From an uncultured Dokdonia sp. (lineage in GTDB: Bacteria; Bacteroidota; Bacteroidia; Flavobacteriales; Flavobacteriaceae): 64,000 nucleotides of DNA. The DNA lies in contig NZ_CANMDS010000007.1 of the NCBI RefSeq assembly GCF_947496725.1, positions 1 through 64,000 on the forward strand, written 5' to 3'. The translations under genes and the position numbers were made by a program. The notes beneath the pieces are model-generated. The model was not told the origin of the DNA. It saw only the letters and a list, made by a program, of their open reading frames with translations, and ran no database searches. Positions 9,234 through 58,904 of the stretch are shown here, piece by piece. Positions within the stretch are counted from its first letter, which is position 1, and every line of letters begins with the position of its first letter.

Positions 9234-9782
9234 ATGGTAAAAGGAACACGGGTACAAGCACTAGATGACGATTTTGAAGGTCTGGTAGTAGAGACGGTAG
9301 ATGGAGAGATACTTGTAGAAGATAGTGATGGGTTTATTTTACGCTTTCGCGAAAGCGAACTCATACCCATTATAGATGATAGACTTAACCGTGATCTTGC
9401 TTATGTACCAGATAGTGTAATCTCTGAAAAAGAGCAGCCTAAAAGACGACAAACCCCAAAAGTCTCTTCAAAAGAGCGCAATGCTCCTATGTTTGAGGTA
9501 GATCTACATATTAATAAACTTGTAAAATCTAAGCGTGGTATGAGCAATTATGAGATACTCACCCTACAGCTTGATACAGCAAGAGGTCAACTAGATTTTG
9601 CCATACGAAAGCGCATTCCAAAAATGGTTTTCATACACGGAGTAGGAGAGGGCGTACTGCGAGAGGAGCTCTATACTTTACTACGTAGGTATGACGGCAT
9701 TAAATTTTATGATGCAGATTTTCAAAAATATGGTGCAGGAGCAACCGAGGTCTACCTCTACCAAAACGCCACTACTCGTTAA
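9234..9782 (+). CDS. Smr/MutS2-C-terminal domain protein with N-terminal DUF2027-like region
   Basis: Protein of 182 residues. The N-terminal 50 residues (VKGTRVQALDDDFEGLVV) resemble the small beta-barrel start of DUF2027 proteins. The C-terminal half is an Smr domain with VDLHI near residue 90, IHGVGEGVLREEL as the Smr nuclease/nicking loop, and a GAGATEVYL end. Smr domains bind and nick nucleic acids; recent work ties several to ribosome rescue, so an RNA role is plausible. The genome palindrome sits in frame and encodes RFRES. The 3' end overlaps the convergent lipoprotein gene by 11 bases. Confidence 0.83.
   Translation: MVKGTRVQALDDDFEGLVVETVDGEILVEDSDGFILRFRESELIPIIDDRLNRDLAYVPDSVISEKEQPKRRQTPKVSSKERNAPMFEVDLHINKLVKSKRGMSNYEILTLQLDTARGQLDFAIRKRIPKMVFIHGVGEGVLREELYTLLRRYDGIKFYDADFQKYGAGATEVYLYQNATTR
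9341..9358. repeat. Iterated palindrome, copy inside the Smr gene
   Basis: ACGCTTTCGCGAAAGCGA (perfect 16-base core) inside the Smr gene, read as Arg-Phe-Arg-Glu-Ser. Confidence 0.95.
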
Positions 9783-10704
9783 AATCTGGCTTTTCTGTTA
9801 TAACAACGTCTGGTGATGTATATACACCAAAATTTTGAGTAGACTCATCACGTTGCTCATCTTGGTTTGCAGGATTTATATATACAAGTAACCTTGTAAA
9901 TATAGATATCTGGAAGTCTGTAATAACATACTCATTATCACGATACTCATCTACAGTAGTTTCTACCGCAATGGCGGGATTTAAGTAATCATCTTCAGTA
10001 GGACTATCTGGGTTTGAGTTATCATTTGCTGGGTTGAGATCCATATTTGCATCTTCGTTGCGTGTGAGCACTCCATCACCATCATCATCTGGGTCAAGGT
10101 AATCTGGTATCTCATCACCATCTGTATCTCTAGAGAGCATTGTATCTATAGCAGTCCCATCTTCATTGAGAACCACACCTTCTAGCTCGGTAGGTACGTT
10201 ATCACCATCATCATCAGAGTCTAATATGTCTGGAATGCCATCCTCATCAGTATCCTTAAGATCTGCAGTACCCGCGACACCTTCTGGGTCTTCTATCTCA
10301 GAAGGTATGCCATCCTCATCAGTTTCGGTTCCTGATCTTGTAATGAGCACTTCTCCCTCTGTACTTATAAACTCTTCTGCCACAACCGGTGTTGCAGGTG
10401 GTATAAGGCTACAGAAGTAATCACTAGATACCGCTTCATTAAAACGTCTGTATGAAACTTGGTCATCACCAGAGAGTGTAATGTCATCAAGTTCATCTAC
10501 TCCCCCAAAAATATCTTGAGAGGTTGTAAACTGTAGCGCTAGCGTCTCGTTAGTACTCGTGTTAATTTTATAAAACACATACTCGCTATCTGTACAAAGT
10601 TCTAGCTCAAGATCATCAAAATCTATCTCTGTGACTATAAGATCACCATCGTCACACGAGGTAGCGATAAAAGAAAGGATAACTAAGGCTAGAAGCTTTT
10701 TCAT
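9772..10704 (-). CDS. Lipoprotein with thrombospondin-3-like Asp-rich repeats
   Basis: Lipoprotein of 310 residues: signal peptide with lipobox FIATSC (Cys17). The middle holds calcium-binding-type repeats of the thrombospondin type 3 style (DTDEDGIPDILDSDDDGDNV and a second copy DTDGDEIPDYLDPDDDGDGV, plus a weaker one before). Such repeats are common linkers in Bacteroidetes surface proteins and are expected to be rigid when calcium is bound. No enzyme motif is present. Probably displayed on the outer membrane. Its start is divergent from the cysteine desulfurase gene. Confidence 0.8.
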   Translation of the reverse strand: MKKLLALVILSFIATSCDDGDLIVTEIDFDDLELELCTDSEYVFYKINTSTNETLALQFTTSQDIFGGVDELDDITLSGDDQVSYRRFNEAVSSDYFCSLIPPATPVVAEEFISTEGEVLITRSGTETDEDGIPSEIEDPEGVAGTADLKDTDEDGIPDILDSDDDGDNVPTELEGVVLNEDGTAIDTMLSRDTDGDEIPDYLDPDDDGDGVLTRNEDANMDLNPANDNSNPDSPTEDDYLNPAIAVETTVDEYRDNEYVITDFQISIFTRLLVYINPANQDEQRDESTQNFGVYTSPDVVITEKPDFNE

Positions 10705-10747
10705 ATAAATTATGTTTATGACAAAAATAGGGTAAAGAGATGTAATT

Positions 10748-10762
10748 ACGCTTTCGCGAAAA
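10748..10762. repeat. Iterated palindrome, degenerate copy in a divergent promoter region
   Basis: ACGCTTTCGCGAAAA: left arm and core intact, right arm lost. One of only two copies lying between divergent genes. Confidence 0.8.
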
Positions 10763-10878
10763 AAGTTATTTAAACAGCATTAACACCCTGCACTTACTAG
10801 TTACAATATGCCCATTCGGTACAACTTTGCTCATCATATAGAAACGCTAAAGTGTAAGAGCTGTCGGGATATTTTAGT

Positions 10879-10886
10879 TATTTTTG
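10879..10886 (+). promoter_or_regulatory. -7 promoter element of the cysteine desulfurase gene
   Basis: TATTTTTG fits TAnnTTTG, 28 bases before the ATG. A good -33 TTG is not visible. Confidence 0.5.
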
Positions 10887-10914
10887 TAGACTAATCCCCT
10901 AAGGAATAACGTTT

Positions 10915-12072
10915 ATGTCTCAGGTTTATTTTGATAATGCTGCAACCACTCAAATACGTCAAGAAGTATTAGAACGTATGATGGAAGTTATGAGAGAGGT
11001 GCCTGGTAATCCATCTTCTACACACGCCGTAGGTCGCACAGCAAAAAGTCACGTAGAAAGTGCACGTAAAACTATTGCAAAGATTCTTAATGTTACTGCG
11101 GGAGAGATTATTTTTACATCTGGAGGTACAGAGGCAGATAATCTTGTCATAAATAGCGCCGCTCGAGACTTAGGAGTACAACGCATTATTACCTCACGTA
11201 TAGAGCATCACGCAGTGCTACACGCAGCAGAAGAAGCAGCAAAAACCTATAACATTTTACTAGAGTACGTTCCCTTAAAAGAATGTGGTACTCCAGACGA
11301 AAAAAAGCTAGAAGAAATGCTCGCATCAAATGATGCAAAAACCCTCGTGAGCCTTATGCACGTTAATAATGAGGTGGGTAATATGATAGACATAAAAGCA
11401 ATCGCGACTATGTGTAAATCATATGGAGCACTGGTACACTCAGATATGGTGCAAAGCATTGGCCATTATGCTATAGACCTTCAGGAGGTACCTGTAGATT
11501 TTGTAGCGGCTGCTGGTCATAAATTTCACGGGCCAAAAGGTGTAGGATTTGCATTTATAAGAAAAAATAGTGGTCTTAAGCCACTTATCTTTGGTGGTTC
11601 ACAAGAGCGTGGTTTACGAGCTGGTACAGAGGGTGTACATAATATTGCAGGACTTGAGACAGCAATGCAATGTGCATATACTCATCTTGAAGAAGAGAGC
11701 AATTATGTGAAAGGGATAAAAACCTATTTCGCCGAAAGGCTTAAAAAAGAAATCCCTAGTGTAAAACTTAATGGGAATTGTAGCAATCCAGAGAAGAGTA
11801 CATATACATTACTTAATGTATGCTTACCTATTGCTTCAGAAAAGGCATTATTGCTGCTTTTTCAATTAGATATGAAGGGTATTGCTTGCTCTAAAGGAAG
11901 CGCTTGCCAGAGTGGGAGTGATAAAGGATCACACGTACTTCAAGAAATCTTATCTGAAGATGATCTTAAAAAGCCTAGCGTGCGTTTTTCTTTCTCAAAG
12001 TATAATACAAAAGAGGAGGTAGACTACGTGATAAGTGTACTTAAAGAGTTTCTAGACGGTGTACCTGCGTAG
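10915..12072 (+). CDS. Cysteine desulfurase (IscS/NifS family)
   Basis: PLP enzyme that takes sulfur from L-cysteine for iron-sulfur clusters and thiolated tRNA. The full 385-residue class V aminotransferase fold is visible, with YFDNAATT at the start, FTSGGTEADN, the PLP lysine Lys203 in AGHKFHGPKG, and the persulfide-carrying Cys331 in GSACQSG. The short catalytic loop before and after Cys331 is the IscS/NifS (group I) type rather than SufS. It stands alone, without iscU or a regulator nearby, so a general sulfur-donor role is likely. Its exact cellular partner cannot be told from this window. Confidence 0.88.
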   Translation: MSQVYFDNAATTQIRQEVLERMMEVMREVPGNPSSTHAVGRTAKSHVESARKTIAKILNVTAGEIIFTSGGTEADNLVINSAARDLGVQRIITSRIEHHAVLHAAEEAAKTYNILLEYVPLKECGTPDEKKLEEMLASNDAKTLVSLMHVNNEVGNMIDIKAIATMCKSYGALVHSDMVQSIGHYAIDLQEVPVDFVAAAGHKFHGPKGVGFAFIRKNSGLKPLIFGGSQERGLRAGTEGVHNIAGLETAMQCAYTHLEEESNYVKGIKTYFAERLKKEIPSVKLNGNCSNPEKSTYTLLNVCLPIASEKALLLLFQLDMKGIACSKGSACQSGSDKGSHVLQEILSEDDLKKPSVRFSFSKYNTKEEVDYVISVLKEFLDGVPA

Positions 12073-12073
12073 T

Positions 12074-14542
12074 CTAGAACTTAGCAGATACTCGTACATT
12101 AAAAACTCTAGGAGATAAAAAGTTAGGAATTGCAAACTGCTGTTGTGTACTTGCGTCTCTTACAAAGGTGTTTGTAATAGAGTTCTGTCTATCAAATATG
12201 TTATAGATTTCAAAACCAGCTGTAAGATCCTTGAAGACGTGCAGCCAGTGACCCTTTGGGAACGGTTTTGATGCATCTGTAAATACATAATTTATACCTG
12301 CATCTGCTCTAAAATAATCTCTCAACCTAGGTAATTCTGAAAACACATAAGGATCTGCATAACTAGGTGATCCTCCTGGTAGACCTGTCTGGTATACCAT
12401 ATTAATGTAAAGTTTCAAACTAGGAATATTAGGCGCGTAGTCTTGAAATAGAAAAGCAACCTTTAATCGTTGATCTGTAGGTCTTGGTATATATCCTTGA
12501 TTGTCTATATTTTCTTCTGTGCGCAGTACACCTAGACTTATCCAGCTTTGTGTACCTGGTACAAACTCACCATTAAGTCTGGTATCTATACCATAAGCTC
12601 TTGCCGTAGCATTATTTGTAGCTCTGTAACGTATGCGTACATTTTCTAAGGTATATGGATTTACATCTGTAAGACCTTTATAATATGCTTCTGTCACTAG
12701 TTTAAAAGGGCGTTCCCAAAGATTAAAACTCCAGTCGTGGCCAGCTACAAGATGAAAAGATTTTTGAGCTTTTACATCTGGTCGTACCTGTCCCAGTGAG
12801 TCTCTCAACTCTCTATATAAAGGAGGTTGGGCATAGAGACCTCCAGATAATCTAAAAATCATATCTGAGTTGCCACCAGGTTTTAAACTAAGTTGAGCTC
12901 TCGGGCTTATCACGGTTTGTGTTGTATTCTCAATGTTATCTCCGCTTACCGTCCACTGTTGTGCTCGTACTCCAGCATTTATCCAGAGCTCATTATTTCC
13001 TACCTCGGTACGTTTACTGTATTGTCCATAAGCAGAGAGTCTATTAATCTGCACATTATTACGGGCACGTATGTTTGTAAATGGCTCAAGAGGCGCATCA
13101 AATGCCGCATAGGGTTGCTCATTTGTAAAATCTCCTATAGGTGGTCTTATAGAAAACCCAGCAGAGTCTATAACCTCATATTCTTCTAGTCTATCACGTA
13201 TATCTTCACGAGTATATTTTATACCCCAATCTATCTGGTCTGTATCTTTTAGATACGTTCCTTTATGCTCTACATTTATAAAAAGAGCATCTAGATCATT
13301 ACGAGCGTGTGTAAGTTGTGAGCCTATACCTTGTGTAAACTCTACATCACCTAGGTCTTCATCACCTATGTTAGTATTAGGTCTTCCTAAACGATAGTCT
13401 GCAAAAATATCAAAATACTCTTGCTCTTGTGTGTGATATGCAGATCCTAAAACTTTGAGTGTGGTATGCTCATTAAGTTGATAAGTACCTTTTAAGGCTC
13501 CAAAGTAAGTCTCATACTTATCTTCTTCTTGACCTTCATAAAAGACAATAAGGGCTAGAGGATCTGCAAGACTACCAAAATTGGTTTGTCGTGTAAGTGG
13601 CTCATAGTCATATTTATTTATCGCAATGTTCCCTAAAAAGTCTAGTTGAAATTTATTTGTAAACTTATACGTAAGCAATGACTGAGCGTCAAAAAAACGT
13701 GGTTTAAAGTTAGTTTCTGTTTGTTTTGCATTTACAAGAAGGCTATTATCGCGATAACGTACACCTGCAAGTGCTGTAAATCTCCCGTCTTTAGAAATTC
13801 CTTCACCAGAGATACTACCGCCTAGAAGGCTTGCATCCACACTGGCCGCAAAATCTACAGGCCTTCTGTAGGTAATGTCAAGTACAGAAGAAAGTTTGTC
13901 TCCATATTTTGCCTGAAATCCTCCAGCACTAAAAGCTACATTTTGAACTAGATCACTGTTTACAAAACTCAATCCTTCTTGCTGTCCAGAGCGTACTAAA
14001 AATGGACGGTAAACTTCTATTTCATTAATGTATACAAGGTTCTCGTCAAAGTTACCACCGCGCACAGCATATTGTGTACTTAGCTCATTGTTATTACTCA
14101 CTCCTGGTAATGACTTGAGAAGATTTTCTACTCCCGCATTTGCACCTGGTGTCTTGCGTATAGTCTCTGGAGCTATGGTAGTCACGCCTTCTACACGCTG
14201 CCTGGTAGTAGTGGTAATAATAACTGTACCTAATTGTTCAATGTCGGTTTTTAATACTGGGTTAAACTCAATATCGGCATTTGCTTTAAGGTTGAAGGTT
14301 TGTGTTATCTTTTTAAAACCTACATAAGTATAAGATATTGCGATGTCCTCATTTGCAGGAATCACTATTACATAAAAACCATTGTCATTTGTAACAGTAC
14401 CATCTCCCATAAATGCAACAGAAGCTCCTGGTACAGGTGTGTTTTTATCATCTAGTATGATGCCTCTTATAGTTGCCGTTTGGGCAAGACCTAGAGTTGT
14501 AAAACATAAAAGTAGGATGAGTAGGAGGTAGTTATTTTTCAA
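12074..14542 (-). CDS. TonB-dependent outer membrane receptor with carboxypeptidase-like N-terminal domain
   Basis: Outer membrane active transporter of about 822 residues. After the signal peptide (KNNYLLLILLLCFTTLGLAQ) comes a carboxypeptidase-like regulatory domain (ATIRGIILDDKNTPVPGASV). Next is the plug with NLLKSLPGVSNNNELSTQYAVRGGNFDENLVYINEIEVYRP, then a 22-strand barrel ending in FLSPRVFNVRVSAKF. The substrate is unknown. I place the start at TTG 14542 because the signal peptide begins exactly there; an upstream ATG at 14593 would add 17 residues with no signal-peptide character. The TTG overlaps the stop of the upstream M23 peptidase gene, which suggests coupled translation. Confidence 0.85.
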   Translation of the reverse strand: MKNNYLLLILLLCFTTLGLAQTATIRGIILDDKNTPVPGASVAFMGDGTVTNDNGFYVIVIPANEDIAISYTYVGFKKITQTFNLKANADIEFNPVLKTDIEQLGTVIITTTTRQRVEGVTTIAPETIRKTPGANAGVENLLKSLPGVSNNNELSTQYAVRGGNFDENLVYINEIEVYRPFLVRSGQQEGLSFVNSDLVQNVAFSAGGFQAKYGDKLSSVLDITYRRPVDFAASVDASLLGGSISGEGISKDGRFTALAGVRYRDNSLLVNAKQTETNFKPRFFDAQSLLTYKFTNKFQLDFLGNIAINKYDYEPLTRQTNFGSLADPLALIVFYEGQEEDKYETYFGALKGTYQLNEHTTLKVLGSAYHTQEQEYFDIFADYRLGRPNTNIGDEDLGDVEFTQGIGSQLTHARNDLDALFINVEHKGTYLKDTDQIDWGIKYTREDIRDRLEEYEVIDSAGFSIRPPIGDFTNEQPYAAFDAPLEPFTNIRARNNVQINRLSAYGQYSKRTEVGNNELWINAGVRAQQWTVSGDNIENTTQTVISPRAQLSLKPGGNSDMIFRLSGGLYAQPPLYRELRDSLGQVRPDVKAQKSFHLVAGHDWSFNLWERPFKLVTEAYYKGLTDVNPYTLENVRIRYRATNNATARAYGIDTRLNGEFVPGTQSWISLGVLRTEENIDNQGYIPRPTDQRLKVAFLFQDYAPNIPSLKLYINMVYQTGLPGGSPSYADPYVFSELPRLRDYFRADAGINYVFTDASKPFPKGHWLHVFKDLTAGFEIYNIFDRQNSITNTFVRDASTQQQFAIPNFLSPRVFNVRVSAKF

Positions 14543-54303: not shown

Positions 54304-55704
54304 ATGAGTTCATACGATGTAGCCGTTATAGGCTCTGGTCCTGGTGGATATGTTGCAGCAATACGTTGTGCACAACTAGGAATGAAAACAGCAATAATAG
54401 AAAAATATAGTACACTAGGAGGAACTTGTCTTAACGTAGGGTGTATCCCGTCTAAGGCGCTTCTAGATTCATCACACCACTATGAAGATGCCATCAAGCA
54501 TTTTGAAGAGCACGGTATCGAGGTAGGTGATGTAAAATTTAACCTAGAGAAAATGATTGCCCGCAAGCAAAGCGTAGTAGACGTTACTACAAAGGGTATT
54601 GAGTTCTTAATGGGTAAAAATGAGATAGACGTTTACCAGGGTGTGGGATCTTTTAAAGATGCTACACACATAGATATCGCAGGAGAGAAAAACCTAACTA
54701 TAGAGGCAAAAAATACCATTATAGCAACAGGATCTAAGCCTAGCACATTACCTTTTATAAACATAGATAAAGAACGTATCATCACTTCTACAGAAGCATT
54801 AAAACTTCCAGAAGTACCTAAGCACCTTGTTGTGATAGGTGGTGGTGTGATAGGTCTTGAGCTTGGTCAAGTATACAAGCGTCTAGGTGCAGAGGTAACT
54901 GTAGTAGAGTATATGGATCGCATTATCCCTACGATGGATGGCGCTCAGAGTAAAGAATTACTTAAAGTCTTCAAGAAGCAAAAAGTAAAATTTGCTCTAT
55001 CTCACGGAGTTACTGCTGTAGAGCGTGACGGAGATGAGATTACCATAAAAGCGACAAATAATAAAAAAGGTGTAGATGTAGAGTTTAAGGCAGACTACGT
55101 ACTTGTAGCTGTGGGACGTCGTGCCTACACAGACGGTCTTAATCTTGATGCTGTAGGTATCAAGACAGACGAGCGTGGTAAAGTAGAAGTAAACGAGCAC
55201 TTGCAGACTAATGTGTCAAACATTTATGCTATAGGTGATGTGATAAAAGGTGCAATGCTCGCTCACAAAGCCGAAGAAGAAGGAACACTCGTTGCCGAAA
55301 TTCTTGCAGGTCAAAAACCACATATAGATTACAACCTTATACCAGGTGTAGTATACACTTGGCCAGAAGTTGCCTCTGTAGGTAAAACCGAAGAGCAACT
55401 TAAAGAAGCTGGTGTAGCCTACAAGTCTGGACAGTTCCCTATGCGTGCATTAGGACGTAGCCGCGCGAGTGGTGATACAGACGGATTTGTAAAAATACTT
55501 GCAGATAAGGAAACAGATGAGGTACTAGGTGTACATATGGTAGGCGCTCGTGTAGCAGACCTTATAGCCGAAGGAGTAACCGCAATGGAGTTTAGAGCAA
55601 GTGCAGAAGATATTGCACGTATGAGCCACGCACACCCTACGTATGCAGAGGCTGTAAAAGAAGCTGCCCTCGCTGCAACCGAAGATAGACCTATACACAT
55701 CTAG
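54304..55704 (+). CDS. lpdA: Dihydrolipoyl dehydrogenase
   Basis: E3 flavoenzyme of the 2-oxoacid dehydrogenase and glycine-cleavage complexes; reoxidises dihydrolipoamide with NAD. 466 residues: FAD loop VIGSGPGGYVAAI, redox disulfide Cys42-Cys47 in GGTCLNVGCIPSK, NAD loop VVIGGGVIGLELGQVYKRLG, and the catalytic His-Glu region HAHPTYAEAVKEAA at the C-terminus. It stands alone, so it probably serves several complexes encoded elsewhere. Confidence 0.95.
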   Translation: MSSYDVAVIGSGPGGYVAAIRCAQLGMKTAIIEKYSTLGGTCLNVGCIPSKALLDSSHHYEDAIKHFEEHGIEVGDVKFNLEKMIARKQSVVDVTTKGIEFLMGKNEIDVYQGVGSFKDATHIDIAGEKNLTIEAKNTIIATGSKPSTLPFINIDKERIITSTEALKLPEVPKHLVVIGGGVIGLELGQVYKRLGAEVTVVEYMDRIIPTMDGAQSKELLKVFKKQKVKFALSHGVTAVERDGDEITIKATNNKKGVDVEFKADYVLVAVGRRAYTDGLNLDAVGIKTDERGKVEVNEHLQTNVSNIYAIGDVIKGAMLAHKAEEEGTLVAEILAGQKPHIDYNLIPGVVYTWPEVASVGKTEEQLKEAGVAYKSGQFPMRALGRSRASGDTDGFVKILADKETDEVLGVHMVGARVADLIAEGVTAMEFRASAEDIARMSHAHPTYAEAVKEAALAATEDRPIHI

Positions 55705-55723
55705 TCACTACTAGAATGATATA

Positions 55724-55763
55724 CCATAAAAAAACCTGCTAGTGATAGCAGGTTTTTTTATGG
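55724..55763. terminator. Bidirectional terminator between lpdA and the DUF6119-like gene
   Basis: Perfect 18-bp stem (55724-55741 with 55746-55763) with a GTGA loop; A-run and T-run inside the stem ends. Confidence 0.9.
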
Positions 55764-55776
55764 TTTGTGGGTTATT

Positions 55777-55791
55777 ACGCTTTCGCGAAAG
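55777..55791. repeat. Iterated palindrome, truncated copy at the edge of the accessory gene
   Basis: ACGCTTTCGCGAAAG; the right arm is cut at the point where the A+T-rich segment with the DUF6119-like gene begins. Confidence 0.85.
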
Positions 55792-55834
55792 GATATTAAA
55801 ATACACTCAAATTATAAAGCAGTTAATTTGAAAC

Positions 55835-57583
55835 TCAATTTTTGAAACAAGCATCGTTTTTTATAATTTCAAAAGATAAATCATAATAATTTGTTCGCAT
55901 TTCTTGGTAACATTGAATTAGTGATAGTTTAGCAATATTTGATTTGTATTTAGAAACTGTAGATTGCAGTGGTCTATTCTTTATATGGCTAGTTACACAC
56001 ATTACATATTTAATACTATTACTATTTTTAAAAATATTTAAAAATTCCTCTTCATATAAACCATTATTTTTAGACTTAGATTGTAGTCCTTTATAGACAG
56101 CCCTTAAGTATTTATTATCTTCATCTTTAAGATCATTTTTTAATCTTCTAGCTGAGGAAATTATTTGACTGTATAGTTCTCTCATTGAAGTGCTAAAACC
56201 ATATTTTACGTGGCATAAGTAGACTGTGCCGTTATCTATATGAATTATATCAGCAAGTTCTATTGATTCTGGATTTATGGCATCTAAAACAAGGTAGTCT
56301 TTCTTGATATAGCGATCGTTGTATGTGCCTTCGTTCTCTCTTTTTCCGTTAGATTTACTTTTCCATTCTTCATTTAATACTTTATTTTTTAGATCATATT
56401 CATTCAATATATCTGAACATCTCTGATTCATTTCTTGAATAAAAATATTCCTTAGTTGATACCATTTAGAGTCTAAATAGATATAAGTTCCTAGGCCTTG
56501 AATGTGAAGTTCTGTATTTAAATGGTAAATTAAAGCTGTCTTTAAAATAGCTTTCTTCGCATCGTTTTTGTAAGAATAAATATGGATATTATAAATGTAG
56601 TTACTGAAAGATTCTAGATTTTGGTCAAAATTCTGTTCATTAAGATACTTTAAGATTATCGGTAAAATTTCGCTTTTTTCACTTGTTGTTTCAATAGTTT
56701 TAAAATTACTCTTTCCTTTTTTTAATTTGACTTTATATTCATCAGCGCTATAAAAATCTTCTATCTTATTAGGATAGCAAACATCAAAATTTGAAATTTT
56801 TTTACTAGTAATATTTACCCTTTGATTAAATAATTCATTAATTAAGGCGGGTTTAAGAGAATTTTTGATTCTATCTTTATTATTTATTTCTTTATATGAA
56901 CTAAAAAAATCATTTGCCTTTTTTGTTTCTATGTACTCTATAATTTCGATTAAAAGACCTAATTCTTGAAATGTCAATTTTTTATTAATGTTTAATCCAC
57001 TAGATATATTTAAAATTATATTTTTAGATCTATTTGATAAGAATTGATTAAAATATAGTTCAGCAGTTTCAACTGCAATTTTAATTTTTAATTCAGTAGG
57101 GATTTTACCAAACTTAATATAATCCATTAAGCGATAATTGTCTTTAAACTGTTCTGACATACCAGCACGTAGACCAGTAACTCCTCTAGTTTTTATAGTA
57201 ATTATTTGATCTATAACTGGATCCATTATTCTAGAATATGTGTTTAATCCATAAGAAGTATCTAAAAATGGTAAAACATATTTGTAAAACGTTCCTCCGA
57301 TTATTGAGTAAATACCTGATTTAGTATTAACTAGTATTAATATTGAGGGTATCTTATACTCAAGAGAAATTCCTTCAGTGTATTCTTTCGGAATAAATTT
57401 AGACCATTCTGATTCTTTGTCAGACGATTGAATGACAATGAGTTTTGCGTCATAATCAAGTAATTTAATGTCTTTAATTATTGATTCCTTCTTGTTTAGA
57501 GCAAGGTGAGATACTATTCCTTCAATTACCGATTCCAGATTATGCTCTTTTTCAATCTTATATAATGTTGTGTTTTGTTTCAA
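55835..57583 (-). CDS. DUF6119 (TIGR04141)-like sporadically distributed protein
   Basis: Soluble protein of 582 residues. I match it by eye to the sporadically distributed TIGR04141/DUF6119 family: N-terminal TLYKIEKEHNLESVIE, IYSIIGGTFYKYVLPFLDTSYGLN near residues 91-114, RGVTGLRAGMSEQF, and the C-terminal EGTYNDRYIKKDYLVLDA followed by ELADIIHI and VYLCHVKYG (His458-x-Lys460). The last part looks like a nuclease-type core (Asp, then H-x-K), but this is inference; the family's role is not established to my knowledge. Base composition is clearly more A+T-rich and Lys/Asn/Ile-rich than neighbours, and no palindrome copy lies in it, both signs of transfer. Starts with TTG; a stop lies in frame just upstream. 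Confidence 0.75.
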   Translation of the reverse strand: MKQNTTLYKIEKEHNLESVIEGIVSHLALNKKESIIKDIKLLDYDAKLIVIQSSDKESEWSKFIPKEYTEGISLEYKIPSILILVNTKSGIYSIIGGTFYKYVLPFLDTSYGLNTYSRIMDPVIDQIITIKTRGVTGLRAGMSEQFKDNYRLMDYIKFGKIPTELKIKIAVETAELYFNQFLSNRSKNIILNISSGLNINKKLTFQELGLLIEIIEYIETKKANDFFSSYKEINNKDRIKNSLKPALINELFNQRVNITSKKISNFDVCYPNKIEDFYSADEYKVKLKKGKSNFKTIETTSEKSEILPIILKYLNEQNFDQNLESFSNYIYNIHIYSYKNDAKKAILKTALIYHLNTELHIQGLGTYIYLDSKWYQLRNIFIQEMNQRCSDILNEYDLKNKVLNEEWKSKSNGKRENEGTYNDRYIKKDYLVLDAINPESIELADIIHIDNGTVYLCHVKYGFSTSMRELYSQIISSARRLKNDLKDEDNKYLRAVYKGLQSKSKNNGLYEEEFLNIFKNSNSIKYVMCVTSHIKNRPLQSTVSKYKSNIAKLSLIQCYQEMRTNYYDLSFEIIKNDACFKN

Positions 57584-57822
57584 ATAATATAGGTTTTAAG
57601 GATTTTGTTATTAAGCTGGATGAAATTTTTAACCTAAAGTTTATTAGATTTATGTTATTGTCTTTTAATTGATTACATAAATATACACGCTATCAGAGTT
57701 TGAAATCACTATGTTTTTACTTTAGTTTTTATGGGTTATCAACATTATAGTTTCTCTTACTATATCCTCCCAATTTTCAACTATTTTGAACACCAAAGAA
57801 GAAATAAAATAAGGTCGTTTTG

Positions 57823-57830
57823 TATTTTTG
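57823..57830 (+). promoter_or_regulatory. -7 promoter element of the heme A synthase gene
   Basis: TATTTTTG fits TAnnTTTG and lies 21 bases before ATG 57852. The in-frame TTG at 57828 is part of this box, which argues against it as the start. Confidence 0.55.
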
Positions 57831-57851
57831 CAGCTCTTAAAAAGAGTACAT

Positions 57852-58904
57852 ATGTGGTACAGACGCGCGCTTAAAATATCAATCATTTTCTTATACCTCA
57901 TTATCATCGCAGGGGCGGTGGTACGTATGACGGGAAGCGGTATGGGTTGCCCAGACTGGCCGCAGTGTTTTGGGTACTTAGTACCTCCTACAGAAGAGAG
58001 CGAGCTGCAATGGGAGCCTAACCATAGTTATGAAGATGGACAGGTCATTATACGCAATGAGTCGCTGCGCGTTGCGCCAGCAGATTTTACTTCTGGAGCC
58101 ACCTATAATGAGCAAAACTGGGACACTTATGACACGCACGACTATGCCAGCTTTAACGTATGGCACACCTGGATAGAGTATATAAACAGGCTTGTAACGG
58201 CACTAGCCGGTATCCCTATGTTACTTATGGTGATTCTCGCTTTCTGGTACTGGAAGGGACGCAAGGGGCTTATTTTTGCCACCTTTATGGTGTTGCCTTT
58301 AATGCTTTTTCAGGCGTGGCTGGGGAAGCAAGTAGTAGACTCAAACTTACTACCGGTAAAAATTACCATCCATATGATTGCGGCCCTCTTCATAGTAGCG
58401 CTACTCTTGTTCTTGTGGTATAAATCGCAGCATAAAGAGATGGGGATTACGCTTTCGCGAAAGCGTACTTATGACCCTGTTTTTAAAAACCTCATTGTGG
58501 TCGCTAGTATACTCACGCTTGTGCAAATTGCACTAGGCACACAAGTACGACAGTATGTAGATGAGCGCGTGGCAGAGGTAGGCTATGAGGCAAAGGAGTT
58601 ATGGCTTAACCCGGCTACGGTATGGTTTTATGTACATAGATCGTTTTCTATACTCGTGACATTATTAAACCTATATATATTCTGGCGTAATAAAAACCTA
58701 CTGCTAGGGCATACCAAGTTACTTAACTGGACACTCATACTCATAGCCTTAGAGGTGGTGACGGGAATCGCGATGTACTATATAGATTTCCCGTTTGGGA
58801 GTCAGCCATTACATTTAGTCTTAGCGTCATTACTTTTTGGGGTTCAGTTTTATATTTTGTTAGAAAGTTTCCCAAAAAGGGAGGCTATCACACCTACGAT
58901 ATAG
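57852..58904 (+). CDS. ctaA: Heme A synthase (COX15/CtaA family)
   Basis: Membrane enzyme converting heme O to heme A for cytochrome oxidase. 350 residues, eight helices in two four-helix halves. The first half carries VVRMTGSGMGCPDWPQCFG, the long COX15-type loop with FNVWHTWIEYINRLVTAL (heme His) and IHMIAALF; the second half has QIALGTQVRQYVDE and FYVHRSFSILVTLL. This is the two-half type found in Bacteroidetes and mitochondria-like enzymes. I use ATG 57852. A palindrome copy in the loop between the halves encodes TLSRKR. Confidence 0.9.
   Translation: MWYRRALKISIIFLYLIIIAGAVVRMTGSGMGCPDWPQCFGYLVPPTEESELQWEPNHSYEDGQVIIRNESLRVAPADFTSGATYNEQNWDTYDTHDYASFNVWHTWIEYINRLVTALAGIPMLLMVILAFWYWKGRKGLIFATFMVLPLMLFQAWLGKQVVDSNLLPVKITIHMIAALFIVALLLFLWYKSQHKEMGITLSRKRTYDPVFKNLIVVASILTLVQIALGTQVRQYVDERVAEVGYEAKELWLNPATVWFYVHRSFSILVTLLNLYIFWRNKNLLLGHTKLLNWTLILIALEVVTGIAMYYIDFPFGSQPLHLVLASLLFGVQFYILLESFPKREAITPTI
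58449..58466. repeat. Iterated palindrome, copy inside the heme A synthase gene
   Basis: Perfect ACGCTTTCGCGAAAGCGT, read Thr-Leu-Ser-Arg-Lys-Arg in a soluble loop between membrane helices. Confidence 0.95.

Follow-up and report, generated by a model that had tools for sequence, protein, structure and literature searches.

A DUF6119/TIGR04141 gene in the lpdA-ctaA gap of Dokdonia encodes a candidate nuclease of the HxK type

Between lpdA and ctaA, in a 64-kb window of DNA from an uncultured Dokdonia sp. (the whole stretch analyzed here, positions 1 to 64,000 of contig NZ_CANMDS010000007.1), lies a single gene of the DUF6119/TIGR04141 family, antisense to both of its flanks. How did this gene come to be there, and what might its protein do? 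A preliminary description of the locus had seen in it an accessory gene, perhaps of defense or conflict, with a nuclease-like arrangement of residues. Its observation is confirmed and its direction was largely right, and its interpretation is partly supported by what follows. With this gene, a family that has a name but no studied function gains a further member. We put about even weight on the explanation we favor, namely that it encodes a stand-alone, horizontally acquired defense nuclease with a predicted activity on DNA.

RESULTS

The window gene is an intact and divergent family member

ORFs (open reading frames) in the window were called mechanically. The gene in question is:

55835..57583, minus strand: intact DUF6119/TIGR04141 ORF of 582 codons, encoding 582 amino acids (aa) (ORF list; Pfam and NCBIfam scores over cut-offs)

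Profile searches bear out the family that the preliminary description had named. Pfam PF19614 (DUF6119) matches residues 7-574 at 84.9 bits (cut-off 27) and NCBIfam TIGR04141 matches residues 24-499 at 73 bits (cut-off 35), both cut-offs being curated ones. The gene starts with TTG, which is plausible because two Dokdonia homologues have their ATG at the aligned position. Its GC content of 0.262 is the lowest among the 33 window ORFs of at least 250 aa (next-lowest 0.341, median 0.395), and its protein contains 11.7% Ile, 11.5% Lys and 8.8% Asn; start codon, A+T-richness and composition had all been read correctly from the DNA. It is the only DUF6119 copy in its own genome. Sequence searches against solved structures, with the window protein and also with a 55-row profile, gave no match, and PHROG returned a single weak one (E 0.033; profile 23 positions). 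The family currently carries the label "function unknown / sporadically distributed", and we found no paper on the function of DUF6119, TIGR04141 or PF19614 in the open-access literature, subscription papers and supplements lying outside the scope of that search; the single paper retrieved deals, to judge by its title and the opening of its abstract, with wheat MADS-box genes.

Two alignments were used. In the 55-row alignment, the window protein is 24 to 37% identical to Bacteroidota-type members, the top value being to a Dokdonia copy, and 16% identical to one row of a second type. A wider alignment of 24 rows covers Bacteroidota, Pseudomonadota, Bacillota and Actinomycetota, with two rows common to both alignments and some of the 24 being close kin; here identity falls to 14 to 23%. 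The window copy is thus a divergent one, and it shares its invariant motif, described below, with the plasmid-borne members.

The modeled C-terminal domain resembles PD-(D/E)xK nucleases

An AlphaFold2 (AF2) model of the full-length protein, built from 55 sequences, has a mean predicted local distance difference test score (pLDDT) of 86.4 and a predicted template modeling score (pTM) of 0.74. Residues 379-582 modeled alone reach a pLDDT of 92.5 and a pTM of 0.90. The features of this domain are:

55838..56449, minus strand: predicted PD-(D/E)xK-like nuclease domain (HxK variant), residues 379-582 (AF2 domain model, VIA-align, invariant residues)
56330..56332, minus strand: codon of invariant E418, in the helix preceding the sheet (two alignments, model)
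56282..56284, minus strand: codon of invariant D434 (two alignments)
56249..56260, minus strand: codons of E442-L-A-D445, D445 probably taking the "PD" Asp position, judged by element order (alignments, model)
56204..56212, minus strand: codons of H458-V-K460, probably at the (D/E)xK place, again by element order (alignments, model)
56165..56167, minus strand: codon of invariant Q473, in the next helix (alignments, model)

In the model, E442-x-x-D445 opens one strand, H458-x-K460 ends the next and Q473 lies in the helix after it. This predicted order is like that of PD-(D/E)xK nucleases such as the FokI cleavage domain, HamA, Upx, Shedu and LmuA, which likewise have an Asp ahead of one strand, a Lys closing the strand after it and a Gln in the helix that follows. 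The window protein differs from them in having His rather than Asp or Glu two positions before the Lys, and in giving no sequence match to solved structures. The D...ELAD...HxK motif pointed out in the preliminary description is real and goes beyond chance: E418, D434, E442, D445, K460 and Q473 are invariant in 55/55 rows and in all 24 rows of the wider alignment, and H458 is kept in 55/55 and 23/24, with Cys in a Streptomyces row.

Structural comparison of the domain with VIA-align placed FokI on top, with a Z of 6.8 (126 aa, 3.2 Å), below the value of 8 under which, by the tool's own note, a match can reflect a common arrangement of elements. Ranks 2-10 are two CdiA-CT toxins, AF1548, HamA of Hachiman (twice), OkrAI, Upx and BamHI (twice), and Can2, PfoI, LmuA, Shedu, HerA-DUF, PspGI, NgoMIV and XPF stand lower among the 50 listed matches; all of these, from FokI to XPF, we take to be PD-(D/E)xK proteins. 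Their Z scores include 5.5 for HamA, 5.3 for OkrAI and Upx, 4.8 for BamHI, 4.4 for Can2, 4.2 for LmuA and 4.1 for Shedu. The predicted fold is thus not one unrelated to nucleases, and because an invariant motif stands beside these modest scores, the nuclease reading gains weight. Together, they support a C-terminal domain that, as modeled, is most like PD-(D/E)xK nucleases, in the form of an HxK variant. The earlier likening to nuclease cores holds as far as the PD-(D/E)xK-type top ten and the motif go, and is tempered by the modest scores and by the His in place of the acid. We did not file the protein as a canonical PD-(D/E)xK member, since His (55/55 and 23/24 rows) or Cys (one row) stands where the acid is expected. 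TnsA, an active enzyme, also has a non-acidic residue at this position.

The N-terminal module is predicted to resemble the RdgC/RexA/Iml3 group in fold

A further resemblance, new in this analysis, concerns the other end of the protein:

56918..57583, minus strand: predicted RdgC/RexA/Iml3-like module, residues 1-222, by fold resemblance alone (AF2 full model, VIA-align, Foldseek)

All scores for this module come from the full-length model. A Foldseek search of the PDB with that model ranked Iml3 first and second (E 1.1e-3 and 5.0e-3), and nothing reached an E of 0.001 or below. Within residues 1-224, VIA-align listed a triphosphate tunnel enzyme (Z 6.3), CENP-N (6.1), Iml3 (6.0), the N terminus of RnlA (5.7; 80 aa at 2.5 Å) and RdgC (5.5; 184 aa at 5.5 Å). 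Among 816 Foldseek matches to the full model in BFVD, rank 1 is an "Exonuclease" of Escherichia phage PTXU04 (E 1.9e-4), and ranks 2-4 are phage RdgC proteins (E 1e-3 to 6e-3), in a table that does not give the aligned range of the model. As phage RdgC genes frequently carry an "exonuclease" annotation, the PTXU04 protein is probably an RdgC as well. According to PMC11077077, lambda RexA, RdgC, IML3 and CHL4 have one shared fold, RexA and RdgC matching at a Dali Z of 4.4; several of our matches (Iml3, CENP-N/L and RdgC in the PDB, phage RdgC in BFVD) may thus be seen as one group, DNA-binding and with a phage-exclusion member. Residues 1-222 are predicted to resemble this DNA-binding group by fold and not by sequence. 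Membership in the RdgC family itself was considered and dropped: hhalign of our N-terminal alignment against six RdgC sequences gave a probability of 0.06%, and the RdgC profile (PF04381) matched neither the window protein, up to an E of 10, nor anything in its own genome. We kept the fold resemblance alone. RexA does not appear in the rows listed, an absence from which nothing follows.

Homologues occur in restriction operons and beside defense genes

The window protein itself found no match among plasmids and phages and no relatives in viral contigs. A canonical homologue (L061) used as the query retrieved 31 plasmid records and one phage record. We examined the context in 19 of the 31 plasmid records, 18 of which are annotated in the relevant stretch. 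Type I restriction-modification (RM) genes are present in seven of these 18, and in four of the seven the DUF6119 gene sits between hsdS and hsdR. In four alphaproteobacterial plasmids (L128, L129, L134, L140) the order is hsdS - DUF6119 - hsdR - SprT, and the genes overlap or touch. Other plasmid copies lie next to AbiH (one copy) or a NACHT protein (one copy), and one has a DUF3800 gene two places away, of a family met again as cargo at the Dokdonia locus described below. In a Pseudomonas phage (BK061476.1, 5689-7398), a DUF6119-like gene stands between two integrase genes near the end of the record.

On chromosomes, ten neighbor proteins chosen by eye for scanning provide examples rather than counts: an Eco57I-type RM enzyme, DUF2779, TIR and KAP proteins adjoin homologues, and a reverse transcriptase lies a few genes off. 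A Pfam tally of near neighbors (n=210) includes at least four putAbiC, two TIR_2 and two AbiTii. PADLOC tallies, which count families matched and not proteins, gave 235 families for 100 proteins and 251 for 110 among near neighbors (within two genes), and 67 for 91 and 171 for 87 among far neighbors (genes 5-6). Neither set includes the L121 rows, L083 (almost the same as L082) or one protein of more than 1600 aa; the near set is also without two L071 ORFs in an apparent transposase, and the far set of 87 proteins contains two long proteins, one of them an RM enzyme. We regard the difference between near and far as a weak sign. The suggested defense role draws its support from context, namely the type I RM operons, the AbiH, NACHT, TIR, KAP and reverse transcriptase neighbors and the phage copy, and from a DNA-binding-like N-terminal fold, and is a candidate role.

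No conserved partner gene emerged from 610 neighbor ORFs at 58 loci; the largest cluster spans six loci and consists, by eye, of integrases. This search used mechanical ORFs and blastp-based clusters, which a very diverged partner could escape. The result bears on the main rival to our explanation, in which the same two domains would form an abortive-infection nuclease that does not spare self DNA: once triggered, it would turn on the DNA or RNA of the host and halt the cell. With the largest cluster at 6/58 loci, there is no obvious methylase or antitoxin; the stretch like the RnlA N terminus and the AbiH, NACHT and TIR neighbors (single loci each) point the same way. A lone toxin without antitoxin would, however, need tight control, of which none is seen, and the hsdS-hsdR placement in four plasmid operons better suits the restriction of incoming DNA. 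We therefore rate abortive infection as unlikely, yet the strongest of the rivals.

A less probable view starts from the missing acid. Here the His substitution would kill cutting, and the protein would exclude phages by binding DNA, as RexA and RdgC might. The (D/E)xK acid is indeed absent from every row of both alignments (55 and 24), and the N-terminal fold is RdgC-like. Against this, the invariance of six residues in four phyla, among sequences 14 to 23% identical to the window protein, looks like the mark of an active site and not of a relic, and we consider a nuclease-dead protein improbable.

Relatives carry other cargo in the lpdA-ctaA gap

The setting of the window gene is defined by the following features:

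54304..55704, plus strand: lpdA, hotspot flank (ORF list; across the gap from ctaA in 15/15 relatives)
55729..55759, plus strand: terminator-like hairpin of lpdA, seen by eye and also 3' of lpdA in G001, G009, G007, G004, G005 and G012
about 55791..57662, no strand assigned: cargo unit, a segment that the nearest relative, G001, lacks (blastn breakpoints)
57852..58904, plus strand: ctaA, hotspot flank (ORF list, with the listed TTG start at 57828)

The genus search covered 18 genomes, own included. We compared the ctaA region in 15 relatives and left out of the count G003, which has no lpdA within 1.5 kb upstream of ctaA, and G006, which has no ctaA match. In all 15, lpdA lies on the far side of the gap. 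The gap is empty in four (78, 115, 115 and 251 bp) and occupied by other genes in 11, as listed here:

G001: TPM domain gene and gene of a 190-aa protein
G009: DUF3800 gene
G007: 394-aa protein and ParE-like toxin
G004: 293-aa protein, no assignment
G005: 394-aa protein and DUF3800-like gene
G012: 394-aa protein, Yip1 and 180-aa protein
G008: SatD and DUF3307
G015: 231-aa protein, no assignment
G010 and G011: FkbM methyltransferase
G017: 393-aa protein

For the DUF3800, FkbM and 394-aa types, scanning covered a single copy of each, and the remaining copies were assigned by eye. The 393-394-aa protein looks secreted and occupies the same gap in four Dokdonia relatives (L024, L026, L027, L032; likeness by eye); a Pfam scan of one copy gave no match. 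A blastn search with the window segment found the gene in the gap of none of the 15 relatives, so that vertical conservation at this locus is not what we see. Cargo differs even in the two nearest relatives, G001 (identity 97.5% in lpdA, 96.0% in ctaA) and G009 (97.8% and 96.3%). The gap is thus a cargo hotspot.

The unit exchanged comprises the DUF6119 gene with about 80 bp of upstream DNA, slightly less than the 55777-57851 outlined in the preliminary description, and the gene came in, or was exchanged, as a one-gene cassette of this extent. By eye, the lpdA terminator and a block preceding ctaA recur in six relatives, and no integrase-like ORF was recognized in the gaps of the window and its relatives; recombination in the flanking genes may have brought about the exchange.

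DUF6119 is found in three of the 18 genus genomes, in seven of 299 sampled genomes of the family and in 11 of 395 of the phylum (10 of them over the cut-off), the own genome counted each time. The two other Dokdonia copies are sited elsewhere and group with a Zobellia copy at 100/100 in the gene tree. The window copy is on a long branch outside a 16-row set from several families, and this branch makes its exact place unsure. The low genome counts, the exchange at the locus and the placement away from the other Dokdonia copies support an accessory, patchy and horizontally acquired gene, as had been proposed. Two further copies deserve mention. A Saprospiraceae contig (L085) carries two tandem DUF6119 genes of very different subtypes (9764-11569 and 11660-13207). 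The homologue that reached the highest tblastn identity of the genome scan (41%, best segment), from Gillisia marina (L102, 3197-4787), is divided over two ORFs and apparently broken, and was excluded from alignment A3.

The gene might also be selfish, serving competition among mobile elements and not host defense. The 31 plasmid records, the phage copy by integrases and the cargo-like exchange in Dokdonia would fit. The window gene is, however, chromosomal and single, and no integrase or relaxase was recognized by eye in the gap; the molecular action could nonetheless be the same as the one we favor. We hold this to be a slim prospect. That the gene is a passenger without any defense role, such as an accessory gene for repair or metabolism that homologous recombination has swapped into a permissive gap, accords with the mixed cargo (TPM domain, FkbM methyltransferase, SatD with DUF3307, Yip1) and with the metabolic neighbors of some homologues, but is very improbable given the RM-operon contexts and the nuclease-like motif.

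A palindrome, TTTCGCGAAA, is found in 24 copies in the window, with 0.07 expected from base composition, and 19 of the 24 are embedded in GCTTTCGCGAAAGC. Examples are at 2853, 29837, 55781 and 58453; copies occur in intergenic DNA, within genes such as ctaA and at the lpdA-ctaA edges of several relatives, and the one at 55781 is at the lpdA-side edge. The preliminary description had noted that the gene contains none. This is true and carries little weight: a 1.75-kb stretch would lack the palindrome by chance about half the time (Poisson estimate). At 24 copies per 64 kb its absence is uninformative, and we rejected it as a mark of foreign DNA.

DISCUSSION

We favor a horizontally acquired, stand-alone defense nuclease acting on DNA, and several observations count against it. 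The structural scores are under the level that proves kinship, in the Z range noted above, and no single one is decisive. CD38 and its kin take 17 of the 50 listed C-terminal VIA-align rows (Z of 4.4 or less), and Foldseek with the same domain returned no E below 0.061, its top row being an unrelated glutaminase. The His at the place of the (D/E)xK acid renders catalysis uncertain. At the N terminus, a triphosphate tunnel enzyme takes the top row, level with the RdgC group, so the module may possibly bind a nucleotide; the phage RdgC matches in BFVD have low TM-scores (0.15 to 0.28), and the hhalign comparison with RdgC showed no kinship in sequence. A PADLOC profile scan of the window protein gave no family up to an E of 10. 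The other cargo of the hotspot is mostly not known defense, some homologues stand amid metabolic or transposase genes, and near neighbors include many ordinary housekeeping families. Far neighbors are also defense-rich, and the near signal is modestly higher, in a comparison without a random-genome control.

How might the favored nuclease work? The protein, probably a dimer, would grip duplex DNA through its N-terminal RdgC/RexA-like module (residues 1-222), and the C-terminal PD-(D/E)xK-like HxK domain would make metal-dependent breaks in foreign DNA. The proposed active-site set is E418, D434, E442-x-x-D445, H458-x-K460 and Q473. Because there is no methylase partner, self and non-self would have to be told apart on another basis, and we suggest a type IV-like one, in which modified or abnormal phage DNA is recognized. 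We favor this form since it needs no methylase and since homologues, like TgvAB, are found within or adjoining type I RM operons; trigger, cutting and target are inferred. According to PMC11411939, TgvAB is a type IV restriction system in a type I RM cluster, with proven modification dependence, and a review (PMC12707154) states that type IV genes accompany type I RM families. TgvAB differs in consisting of two GmrSD-family proteins, and for DUF6119 the dependence on modification is a proposal drawn from genomic context.

A bolder reading, which we hold to be rather doubtful, extends this to the family: DUF6119/TIGR04141 might be a widespread, unrecognized family of single-gene restriction proteins, each a RexA/RdgC-like clamp that closes on duplex DNA, joined to a nuclease derived from the PD-(D/E)xK type with a strictly conserved HxK active site; such proteins would serve type I RM systems as their modification-dependent partner and be free-standing cargo elsewhere. 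The word nuclease is absent from PMC11077077, so that no nuclease fusion is described for RexA there.

For Dokdonia, lineages about 97.5% identical in lpdA that hold different genes in the gap offer a handy site for seeking accessory genes. For DUF6119/TIGR04141, the architecture and the list of invariant residues make the family a testable defense candidate. If our explanation is true, a fold for which a link with phage exclusion is already known, that of RdgC and RexA, would be extended to a nuclease fusion.

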